From: Gracilibacillus caseinilyticus
Lineage (GTDB): Bacteria > Bacillota > Bacilli > Bacillales > Amphibacillaceae
Assembly: GCF_022919115.1 (NCBI RefSeq)
Contig: NZ_CP095072.1
Location: 4,030,001 to 4,094,000, forward strand
DNA length: 64,000 bases
Reading direction: 5' to 3'
In this document: in pieces, positions 37,836-43,903 of the stretch
Numbering within the stretch: the stretch's first letter is position 1
Layout of the letters: each line of letters starts with the position of its first letter
The notes under the pieces: model-generated
What the model was told of the DNA's origin: nothing
Seen by the model: the letters and a program-made list of their open reading frames with translations, nothing else
Databases searched by the model: none
Translations under genes and position numbers: made by a program

Positions 37836-38738
37836 CTAGTTCTTCCTTTTTTCTTCTAACCAAGAAGGAAGCATAAGTTCCTCTCCTAGTTTATTGATAG
37901 GTTCATCAACAATCAATCCTGGTGGATCTGTTGCTATCTCAAAAAGAATTCCACCTTCTTCATGGAAATATAGTGCTTTAAAATAATTGCGATCTTTTAT
38001 TTCTGTAGGGTAATATCCCTTTTCTATTAGTAGTGACCGCCACTTCTGAAGGTCTTCATCGTCCTTGGCTCTCCATGCAATGTGATGAACTGTACCAGCC
38101 CCCATTAAACCACGCGGAGATGGTGTTAACTTTATATCAACCGTATTGCCAAGCTCTGCTGCCGATTTGAATCTAAGGTATCCTTCCTCTTGCCCAATGA
38201 GTTCAAACCCTAATATATTCTCTAGTACATTTGCCGTTTGATGTGGCTTTGCTGAATTCAATGTAGTTCCACCAAATCCTTTAATTGCAACTTTATCGGT
38301 TATTTCGCCAAAACTCCATCTATTTATTGGTCCATTAATTCGTTCAACTAGTTCAATTGGAAGTCCGTCTGGATCGCTGAACCTAAGATATCTCTCTTCA
38401 AACCAGGTTAATTTTCTCTATTTCTACTCCAAACTTTTGCAAACGGTTCTCCCAAAATTCAATCGAACCATTCGGGATAATATAACTTGTGACTCCTACT
38501 TGACCAGTGCCAATATGTCCTTTAAGTTGTTTCTGCCATAAAAAAATGTAATTATAGTTCCAGGATCAGCAGATTTATTTCCAAAATAAAGGTGATATAC
38601 TTCTGGCCTGTCAAAATTTATTGTCTTTTTTACAAGTCGTAATCCTAGTACACCGGCATAAAAATCTATATTTCTTTGCGCATCATTAACCATCGCTGTA
38701 ATATGGTGAATACCTGCTGTCTTGTGCAAACTACTCAC
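37836..38738 (-). pseudogene. Frameshifted ring-cleaving dioxygenase (second copy)
   Basis: Relic of a two-VOC-domain extradiol dioxygenase, paralogue of 39397-40335. The start region (GTG near 38738) reads KTAGIHHITAMVNDAQRNIDFYAG to TIITFF; the frame breaks near 38510, continues QVGVTSYIIP in another frame, hits a further frameshift near 38405 (before RYLRFSDPDGLP), and the last 141 residues (GAGTVHHIAWRAK, EEGGILFEIATDPPG) are open to 37836. Two frameshifts inactivate it. Confidence 0.88.
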
Positions 38739-38766
38739 TCCATTTCTTACAAGATTATACCTAGAA

Positions 38767-39375
38767 TTATTTCGGTCTTTCCTTAGTAAAGATTTCACCA
38801 ATCTTTGCGTAATCATGCCCTGCTAACCTGCTTATGGCACCAAGACCTCTGGGATCTATTCTTCCGTTTTCGTAAATATCACTTTCAACATGATATTGAA
38901 CTACTCTCCCTATCAGAAAATCACACCCTGGTGTATCTTCGTTCTCCAACTCTAATGCATGTTCCAGCACACATTCCATACGGACTTTTGCTTCCCTTAT
39001 GCCTGGCACCGAGATATTTACACTTTCTACTTCCGTTAAAGCCGCCAGCTGAACCTCACTTTGACTTGGTGGTAATTTTGCTGCCGTTGCATTTATTTTT
39101 TCAACATTTTGTTCATCGACAATATGAACTACAAATTCCTTACTCTTCATGATGTTTCTAGCAGTATCCTTCTGGTTCCCTCCAGACCGTTGTATCGATA
39201 AAGAAACCAAAGGTGGATTAGAAGATACAATATTAAAATAACTAAAAGGTGCTCCGTTTAAGATACCTTCTTCGGACAAACTTGTAACAAATGCAATTGG
39301 TCTCGGTATAATACTCCCGATTAAAAATTTGTAATTCTCTCTTTCCGTTATTGTCCGTGGATCAATGGAAAACAT
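38767..39375 (-). CDS. Flavin reductase-like (flavoredoxin) protein
   Basis: 202-residue split-barrel FMN-binding protein with ENYKFLIGSIIPRPIAFVTSLSEEG, APFSYFNIVSSNPPLVSLSI and KDTARNIMKSKEFVVHIV. Such proteins supply reduced flavin or act as flavoredoxins; next to ring-cleaving dioxygenases it may serve an aromatic hydroxylation step, which is inference. It is 21 bases downstream of mhqO and overlaps nothing, so it should be co-transcribed. Confidence 0.88.
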   Translation of the reverse strand: MFSIDPRTITERENYKFLIGSIIPRPIAFVTSLSEEGILNGAPFSYFNIVSSNPPLVSLSIQRSGGNQKDTARNIMKSKEFVVHIVDEQNVEKINATAAKLPPSQSEVQLAALTEVESVNISVPGIREAKVRMECVLEHALELENEDTPGCDFLIGRVVQYHVESDIYENGRIDPRGLGAISRLAGHDYAKIGEIFTKERPK

Positions 39376-39396: not shown

Positions 39397-40335
39397 TTAA
39401 TCAAGTTCTTTCACTTTTATTGGTATCAATCTACGTTCTAATTGCTCTCTGTATTGTTCATACTGGGCTGGTAACATTAATTGTCCCCCCATTGTTTCAT
39501 GTGATTCATCATGAGCAAATCCAGGAGGGTCTGTTGCAATTTCAAACAAGATTTCCCCATGTTCTCTAAAGTAAATAGCGTTAAAGTAATTTCTGTCTTG
39601 CACAGGCGTAACACCATAACCTTGGTCTGTAACATACTTTTGCCACTCTAACTGATCATTGTCATCAATAGCTCTCCACGCAATATGGTGAACTGTACCT
39701 GCACCTATCTGTCCATTCCCTATTGTAGTTAATTTCAAATCAATGACATTTCCAATATCACCGGAAGAACGGAAACGAATAAAATCTCCTTCTTCCCCAA
39801 CTTTTTCTAGTCCCATTACCTTTTCTAATAATTCAGCTGTTTTTTCTGGTTGTTTGGATAAAAGTGTCGCTCCACCAAACCCTTTGATTGCATTATCTGG
39901 TGTTAATTCCCCGAATTTCCAATTGTTCTTGTCCCCTTCTTCTCTTTCAACTATTTCTAGGTGAAGTCCATGAGGATCATCAAACTCCAAGTATTCTTCT
40001 CCAAAACGGTGCATCTTTGTATAAGGGACGTTAAATTTTGTTAATCTATTTTCCCAGAATGTCATTGCACCTTTTGGAACGACATAAGAAGTAACTCCTA
40101 CCTGACCATCTCCGATCACTCCTTGACTAGCATCTGCCCATGGAAAGAATGTAATGATAGTACCTGGTTTACCACCTTCATCACCAAAATATAGGTGGTA
40201 AGTACCTGGATCATCAAAATTAACGGTTTTTTTCACTAAACGTAAACCTAGAACTCCAGCATAAAAATCTACATTTTCTTGCGGATGACCTACTATTGCT
40301 GTAATGTGGTGAATCCCACTTGTTTTTTTAATCAT
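39397..40335 (-). CDS. mhqO: MhqO-like ring-cleaving dioxygenase
   Basis: 312 residues with two VOC (glyoxalase-fold) modules. Candidate iron ligands are His in SGIHHITAIVG (N-module), His in GTVHHIAWRA and Glu in GEILFEIATDPPG (C-module). This group (MhqA/MhqE/MhqO) opens hydroquinone or catechol rings and confers quinone resistance. It starts 40 bases after mhqN with a clear AGGAG, and the neighbouring relic at 37836 shows a former duplicate. Confidence 0.9.
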   Translation of the reverse strand: MIKKTSGIHHITAIVGHPQENVDFYAGVLGLRLVKKTVNFDDPGTYHLYFGDEGGKPGTIITFFPWADASQGVIGDGQVGVTSYVVPKGAMTFWENRLTKFNVPYTKMHRFGEEYLEFDDPHGLHLEIVEREEGDKNNWKFGELTPDNAIKGFGGATLLSKQPEKTAELLEKVMGLEKVGEEGDFIRFRSSGDIGNVIDLKLTTIGNGQIGAGTVHHIAWRAIDDNDQLEWQKYVTDQGYGVTPVQDRNYFNAIYFREHGEILFEIATDPPGFAHDESHETMGGQLMLPAQYEQYREQLERRLIPIKVKELD

Positions 40336-42651: not shown

Positions 42652-42680
42652 AAAAAAACCACCAATTATGTATTGGTGGA
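42652..42680 (-). terminator. tmRNA terminator, sharing the 3' CCACCA
   Basis: On the minus strand CCACCAAT and ATTGGTGG form an 8-bp stem followed by TTTTTTTGTTTTTTTTG. The left arm starts within the encoded CCACCA end of tmRNA. Confidence 0.85.
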
Positions 42681-43311
42681 GACGGTGGGACGTGCACTTC
42701 CATGCTTTCGACATGGCACTGACTATATCATGAACCTGTTAATCACAGGCTCTTCGGCGTATTATGCAAAATGTAGATTTTGTTAAAAACAACAAGTATT
42801 TTGCATCCTAGTACTACCTTCCTGGTAGCCTATAAGTCGATACACGGCTGTTGGATTCCTCCACATACCGCTCGGTGTTGCCTTATCACCTTTATGGTAA
42901 CTTAGATTTCACCGATAAAGCCGAATTATCACTCATGTGTTGCCACACGAGGCGACTATTTACTAATCGAACCCACGTCCAGAGATATCGGCACTCAGGC
43001 GTCTACACGCATAGTTGGTATATTGCGCATTCGCCAGCTCTTCTGCCTACCAACAGGCGTCCGAGTGGCTAGCCTGATTAGTCTCTTCTATCCTTCCCCA
43101 GGCGGAGGATGATAGCGTAGCCCACTAATAAGTGAGACCCTTCAATCTACCACATGGGCGATGGTAGGAAGGATCCTTCAGCAGTGCTTACGCAGCTGCT
43201 AAAGAGTAATTGTTTTCTTTGCCAGTTATTATTGGCGTTAACGTTTTACGAGTCGTAACCTCGACGCGCAACCTGAGCTCGATCTATCCCTGTCGAATCC
43301 GTAACGTCCCC
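42674..43311 (-). ncRNA. ssrA: tmRNA (ssrA) gene, interrupted in the T-loop
   Basis: Transfer-messenger RNA that rescues stalled ribosomes with SmpB. The 5' end GGGGACGTTACGG and GATTCGACAGGGATAG (43311 downward) and the 3' end CGTCTCCACCA (42684-42674) pair as the acceptor stem, GGGGACG with CGTCTCC. The tag frame (43223 to 43188) encodes GKENNYSLAAA and a stop, giving a degradation tag (A)GKENNYSLAAA. The T-arm is split: GTGGG-TTCGAT at 42976-42966 and T-CCCAC at 42690-42685, with 275 bases between. Removing them leaves 363 nt, a normal tmRNA size. It is downstream of smpB on the same strand, the usual Bacillaceae order. Confidence 0.95.
42691..42965 (-). ncRNA. Putative group I intron inside tmRNA
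   Basis: 275-nt insert between T-loop bases. Evidence for group I: the 5' exon ends in U (TTCGAT) and its CGAU can pair with GUCG at intron positions about 10-13, giving the U.G wobble of P1; the intron ends in G; a segment GATATAGTC near the 3' end resembles the conserved P7/J8-7 region; AAGGCAACACCGAG resembles the P4-P5 core. Hairpins are visible: CTCGTGTG/CACATGAG (P2-like), ATGCAAAAT/ATTTTGCAT (P8-like), CCTGT/ACAGG and CCATG/CATGG near the end (P9-like). No protein is encoded. Full secondary structure was not computed. Confidence 0.85.
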
Positions 43312-43390: not shown

Positions 43391-43418
43391 ATTATAACAT
43401 AAATTCTCTCTAATTCAA
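43391..43418 (-). promoter_or_regulatory. Candidate ssrA promoter
   Basis: On the minus strand TTGAAT (43413-43418), 16-base spacer and TATAAT (43391-43396) lie about 80 bases before the mature tmRNA 5' end, which would leave a leader to be removed by RNase P. It lies in the gap between smpB and ssrA. Confidence 0.55.
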
Positions 43419-43438: not shown

Positions 43439-43903
43439 TTAGTTCATACTATCTTTAATCGCTCGGTCCATATCACGTTTCGCCTGTTTTTGTTTCAGGT
43501 CCTCACGCTTATCGAATTTCTTCTTCCCTTTTCCTAATCCGATCAGAACTTTGGCAAACCCATTCTTAATATATACTTTAAGCGGAATGATAGAATAACC
43601 CTCCTGTTGGCTTTGACCAATCAGCTGATCAATCTGCTTGCGGTGAAGCAACAGCTTACGTGCTCTAGTCGGCTCATGGTTATATCGATTTCCTTGTTCA
43701 TAAGTAGAGATGTGCATGTTATTGACATAGGCTTGCCCTTGCTTAATGGTCGCAAAACTGTCTTTCAAGTTTACTCGACCTGCTCGAATTGATTTTATTT
43801 CCGTTCCTTGTAAAACAATTCCTGCTTCAAACGTATCCTCAATAAAATAATCATGATTTGCTTTTTTATTCTGCGCAATTACTCTTCCTTCTTTTTTTGC
43901 CAT
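43439..43903 (-). CDS. smpB: SmpB, tmRNA-binding protein
   Basis: 154-residue OB-fold protein that binds the tRNA-like half of tmRNA and brings it to stalled ribosomes. The body has [40 protein letters not shown], and the basic tail [20 protein letters not shown] typical of SmpB. AGGAGG precedes the ATG at 43901-43903; a longer frame to 44002 would add an unrelated hydrophobic N-terminus. Sits between rnr and ssrA. Confidence 0.95.

Follow-up and report, generated by a model that had tools for sequence, protein, structure and literature searches.

Evidence for a group I intron in the T-loop of the tmRNA gene of Gracilibacillus caseinilyticus

Introduction

Introns that divide the T-loop of tmRNA have been described in bacteria. 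In a 2025 survey, 883 intron-form tmRNAs are counted, mostly with the intron at T-loop position 7 and predominantly in Bacillota (PMC11915505). A report on the tmRNA intron of Clostridium botulinum, which is 287 nt long, states that this intron was previously shown to self-splice and describes folding assays to which a CGAU oligonucleotide was added (PMC2729099).

Here, we describe an interrupted ssrA gene in Gracilibacillus caseinilyticus. It lies in a 64,000-nt stretch of DNA, the window, to which all coordinates refer. As in the intron-form tmRNAs of the survey, the intron is in a member of Bacillota, lies between T-loop nucleotides 6 and 7 (the survey's position 7), follows a U, and ends in G; it carries no endonuclease gene and has 275 nt, with a founding mean of 293 bp for the surveyed introns. 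Measured against the properties given in that account, we found no difference in kind (PMC11915505). The CGAU oligonucleotide of the Clostridium botulinum assays is the same exon strand that pairs with this intron, but that intron belongs to another lineage and is likened to ours by its description rather than by its sequence (PMC2729099). The Gracilibacillus intron is a further example of an arrangement already described, and one that is fairly common in its bacterial order.

Results

The T-loop of ssrA is interrupted

We found ssrA on the minus strand at 43311-42674. It consists of a 5' exon of 346 nt (42966..43311, GGGGACG...GTGGGTTCGAT), an insert of 275 nt, and a 3' exon of 17 nt (42674..42690), whose segments T, CCCAC, CGTCTCC, and ACCA complete the T-stem and the acceptor stem. 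The insert sits at TTCGAT^T. The first-pass annotation had proposed a tmRNA gene split at this place, and the tmRNA model RF00023 bore this out, matching ssrA with 161.7 bits over 43303-42964 and breaking off inside the T-loop. ARAGORN reported no tmRNA, whether it was given the window or the interrupted gene. With the exons joined, it returned one 363-nt tmRNA with the tag GKENNYSLAAA, encoded with its stop codon at 43188..43223 on the minus strand. Exact removal of the insert thus restores the T-arm, as had been claimed, and the coordinates, the insert length, the U before and the G at the end of the insert, the pairing of CGAU with GUCG, and the spliced length all agreed with the earlier description.

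We identified this gene as ssrA by its tag reading frame, by an acceptor stem with a G3.U70 pair of the alanine type, and by the presence of SmpB in the genome. The smpB gene, which encodes the tmRNA partner protein, lies directly upstream on the same strand (43439..43903; Pfam SmpB, E = 9.8e-64). Among the best 80 of 569 relatives, its product was 91% identical to SmpB of Gracilibacillus massiliensis and 90% identical to that of G. suaedae, and the named relatives place the source genome in Gracilibacillus. A rho-independent terminator, a stem-loop followed by a T run, overlaps the end of the gene (42659..42679, minus strand); the region holds two terminator-like sites, compared with 0.7 expected. 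A possible promoter, TTGAAT-16-TATAAT, lies at 43391..43418 on the minus strand, with 10 of 12 consensus matches and a TG before the second hexamer. It is a weak candidate, since the region contains three such sites and shuffled sequences contain 2.4.

The annotation had named a second intact ssrA gene as evidence against its proposal. The host genome is a single contig of 4,509,959 bases, and a search of it found one ssrA gene above the cut-off and no second one; the 19 other matches had at most 28 bits and were mostly of tRNA length. Elsewhere, in Peribacillus huizhouensis (L100), we observed a pair of ssrA genes without introns; they lie about 1.1 kb from each other, and each has a T-arm and an acceptor end. 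In the window itself, we also observed two reading frames at 37836-38816, both of which contain a partial Glyoxalase domain. One resembles the C-terminal part and the other the N-terminal part of the gene at 39397-40335; together they are apparently a second, broken copy of that gene.

The insert has a conserved group I fold

The group I model RF00028 matched the insert (42691..42965, minus strand) end to end against model positions 1-253. The check with this model, which had been suggested at first pass, came out in two parts: the match was significant (E = 6.1e-5), but its 27.8 bits fell short of the gathering score of 50, which is a detection cut-off and not a biochemical definition. Genome-wide, in a search that scored 138 of 319 first-look candidates, the insert was the only match at E ≤ 0.001 (E = 7.6e-5). 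Because the score lay below the gathering score, we tested the fold on relatives. Our alignment (A2) contains 20 homologous introns, six from the genus and fourteen others; one duplicate (L038, of L025) was left out. Of the 67 distinct introns, the 47 outside the alignment entered only the tree, the boundary counts, the J8/7 comparison, and the reading frame check.

The 20 introns share a P1-P9 fold that includes the P3/P7 pseudoknot. In P1 (42953..42969), the exon bases CGAU and the intron bases UA pair with UAGUCG and place a U.G wobble at the 5' splice site. P2 (42932..42951) is a hairpin with a GCAA loop, and P3 pairs 42925-42920 with 42758-42753. The P4-P6 domain (42844..42914) comprises P4 (42914-42910/42877-42873), P5, P5a, P6 (42871-42867/42848-42844), and P6a. 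P7 pairs 42838-42833 with 42725-42721, forms the pseudoknot with P3, and contains the expected guanosine site. The P8 hairpin (42732..42752) is followed by J8/7 (AUGAUA, 42726..42731). P9.0 (42719-42717/42694-42692) encloses P9 (42716-42712/42704-42700) and adjoins the terminal G at 42691. Two segments that had been singled out as resembling a group I core proved to belong to the core: AAGGCAACACC forms the 3' strand of P5/P4, and GATATAGTC is J8/7 plus P7. Compared with RF00028, this intron has extra hairpins between P7 and P3, P7.1 (42828-42814) and P7.2 (42806-42764), which we take to be subgroup IA-like.

We drew the P1-P9 structure on the window copy and then scored it across the 20 introns. 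It was paired in 98.0% of 1,653 cells, compared with 92.5% in shuffles, a percentage biased towards the structure, whose template was itself among the aligned sequences. When the strands were slid by one to three columns, pairing was only 30 to 41% (maximum, 41.2%). Changes on both sides of a pair are firmer evidence for the fold than the cell percentage. They occurred in 31 of 83 pairs (14.5 in shuffles) and in 106 cells (30.3 in shuffles). P3, P4, P5a, P6, and P8 each contain such pairs; the counts were 4 of 8 pairs in P2, 4 of 6 in P3, 4 of 8 in P8, 5 of 8 in outer P7.2, and 1 of 5 in P7.1. P1 and P7 were invariant in all 20 introns, so that they are supported by conservation and not by covariation.

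From the alignment alone, RNAalifold returned P1, P2, P3, P4, P5, P6, P7.1, P7.2, and P8, and 32 of its 83 pairs were doubly changed. P7 was missing from this output because RNAalifold cannot draw a pseudoknot; the 5' strand of P7 was paired elsewhere, and P9 was drawn differently. The intron with the last six exon bases folded at -91 kcal/mol (z = -5.16), and none of 200 shuffles folded as well. By eye, a P10 pairing with the 3' exon was almost absent.

As had been proposed, the data support a group I intron in the T-loop of tmRNA: 66 further distinct introns at this site are homologous to the insert, the helices carry compensatory changes, and genus mates have exact empty sites.

Splice boundaries are uniform

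After duplicates among the intron loci were merged, all 67 distinct introns, the window copy included, had U at -1, a terminal G, and T at +1. The U|...G rule sets the exact boundary because the T on both sides leaves a one-base ambiguity in the sequence. We also found that the T-loop U was present in all 37 intron carriers of the family sample. Among intron-free genes with a standard T-arm, it was U in 52 of 84 genomes and C in 32 of 84 (counted by hand; the Fisher test ignores kinship). A T-loop U in every family carrier fits the expected need for U at -1.

These boundaries bear on whether the insert could instead be kept, unspliced, so that the mature tmRNA is interrupted, much as in the two-piece permuted tmRNAs. 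In the predicted fold of the precursor, the two halves of the T-stem could pair across the insert. Circularly permuted tmRNA genes are likewise non-contiguous, but in them the 3' part is encoded upstream of the 5' part, whereas the parts of this ssrA gene are in the normal order. With the permuted model RF04321, the score was 28.6 bits, where 47 are required. Retention would also leave the conserved group I core, with U at -1 and G at the end of all 67 introns, without a reason. We regard retention as extremely improbable and continue to read the insert as an intron that would be spliced out.

A core substitution is shared by two genomes

A less expected feature of this intron is found in J8/7. 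The second base (42730) is U in the window copy and in one other genome of the genus (G011), and it is A in the other 65 of 67 distinct introns. The matching adenosine of the Tetrahymena intron contacts P1. The substitution could lower activity.

It raises the question of whether the intron has decayed into an insertion that does not splice, which would make ssrA a pseudogene here and leave ribosome rescue to another route. The restriction of this U to 2 of 67 introns would agree with decay, as would the long branch (0.33) of the window/G011 pair in the intron tree. The G011 intron, however, is 95% identical to the window intron and keeps the same U, which makes a sequencing error or very recent decay less likely. 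All core helices are intact, as are the exons, the tag, the acceptor stem, and the terminator, and the adjoining smpB gene is intact as well. On this evidence, decay is very unlikely, and a self-splicing intron accounts better for the locus.

The intron is widespread in the order and patchy in the genus

The first-pass annotation had called introns at tmRNA T-loops rare, which did not hold for this order: 89 of 397 genomes in the order sample, about one in five, matched the intron 3' end with the 3' exon, and these belonged to 38 of 135 genera. The pattern used could count a remnant, and introns that vary there were scored as non-carriers; an 11-base pattern search was set aside for lack of specificity. 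In the family sample, 37 of 159 genomes carried the intron, from 41 matches less two short ones of 29-32 bases (G014 and G058) and two remnants (G094 and G097). Among the named smpB loci in the best 80 of 569 relatives, 15 had the intron, 49 had an empty site, and 16 had no ssrA by the pattern used.

In the genus sample, we found the intron in 6 of 17 genomes and an exact empty site, with an uninterrupted T-arm, in 11 of 17; a second ssrA copy of one genome (G007, L026) was left out of this count. The host tree was built from SmpB and the end of RNase R (414 of 919 columns) for 16 of the 17 genomes and six outgroups. G004 was absent, and G007 was represented by the contig of its second ssrA copy. 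The six carriers fell within one clade of nine, of which G001, G012, and G014 have empty sites. In the tree of 67 distinct introns, the six genus introns formed one clade (89/90), and 89% of bootstrap trees gave them a single origin. Two pairs, G000/G011 and G005/G008, agreed between the two trees; G006 and G009 were paired in the intron tree, and the host tree left their relationship unresolved. We infer that gain preceded loss: one acquisition followed by later exact losses is the simplest reading of the genus. These trees are also compatible with a second reading, in which the intron was gained more than once from a near source.

A mobile intron with an endonuclease was considered and rejected: the window intron has no such frame, and no reading frame of at least 60 aa was found on its own strand. 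Eight of the extracted introns exceed 300 nt; none of them has a stretch free of stop codons longer than 75 residues, and the 75-residue one is on the opposite strand. Three related introns (L151, L152, and L153, from G110, G079, and G066) are 412 to 426 nt long, with a longest stop-free stretch of 75 residues. Their matches are split between window-intron bases 67 and 80, in the P5a loop region, where the extra length lies; the G110 match is also split between bases 171 and 182.

Two genomes keep displaced intron remnants

Two genomes of the family sample have an intact, intron-free ssrA gene and, apart from it, a piece of the intron. In Paucisalibacillus globulus (G097; L148, L050, and L159), the last part of the intron lies about 200 bases downstream of ssrA, together with a 3' exon and another copy of the terminator. 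In G094 (L149, L157, and L158), the displaced piece starts at about intron nucleotide 80 and continues through a 3' exon and a terminator. The same ISL3-type transposase gene (Pfam DDE_Tnp_ISL3, E = 2.1e-70) borders both pieces at two contig ends, so that a copy of the element probably lies between ssrA and the fragment, which the assembly leaves unjoined.

A displaced target fragment marks the ends of genomic islands in the description of Islander, and the two remnants resemble such fragments (PMC4383910). They suggest one route of intron loss, in which the intron may have been displaced by an island-like insertion. By eye, no integrase-like frame was seen among the frames listed from 80 aa in L157 and from 130 aa in L158 and L159. 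Other explanations of the remnants are a simple duplication and recombination with an ssrA gene of foreign origin.

A broader and rather doubtful idea is that T-loop introns and ssrA-targeting islands compete for one site. The intron would split the usual att region, and an incoming element, by supplying an intron-free 3' end of its own, would regenerate ssrA and push the intron aside. We counted by hand the genomes with additional exact copies of the 3' end of ssrA; the exact 16-base end is present in 35 of 37 family carriers and in 75 of 89 order carriers. In the pooled samples, extra copies occurred in 1 of 103 carriers and 17 of 261 other genomes (P = 0.03, kinship ignored), and without G094 and G097, in 1 of 103 and 15 of 259 (P = 0.05). 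The figures were 0 of 35 and 9 of 75 in the family sample (P = 0.055) and 1 of 75 and 8 of 193 in the order sample (P = 0.45). Four of the genomes with extra copies belong to one genus (g84). Since the pooled P value ignores kinship, and given the P values of 0.055 and 0.45 in the separate samples, we do not regard it as established that the intron protects against islands. The only counted intron carrier with a second exact copy of the 3' end is G197, in the order sample.

Discussion

Our best explanation, to which we give a probability of about 0.95, is that ssrA of this genome encodes a precursor with a self-splicing group I intron that is inherited in a Gracilibacillus subclade and removed to give a working tmRNA. 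According to this model, ssrA would be transcribed with the intron after the sixth T-loop nucleotide. The intron would fold as P1-P9 with P7.1 and P7.2 and dock P1, in which exon CGAU lies on intron GUCG. A guanosine bound at P7 would be used for the cut after U, and the freed exon would then attack after the terminal G, joining the exons as TTCGAT-TCCCAC. The joined T-arm would let the 363-nt tmRNA fold its tRNA-like domain, be processed at its ends, be charged, and be used with SmpB. From the sequences compared here, we infer that the intron splices in the cell without an essential protein helper. It would have been inherited within the subclade and precisely lost in some members, without an endonuclease gene.

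An intron at this place has consequences for annotation. Because ARAGORN returned nothing and the RF00023 match was cut in the T-loop, such genomes may wrongly look as if they lack tmRNA or have a broken one. Pairs of genomes with and without the intron inside one genus are natural material for testing what the intron costs. With the intron in about one in five of the sampled genomes of the order, ribosome rescue would depend on a ribozyme in many of them.
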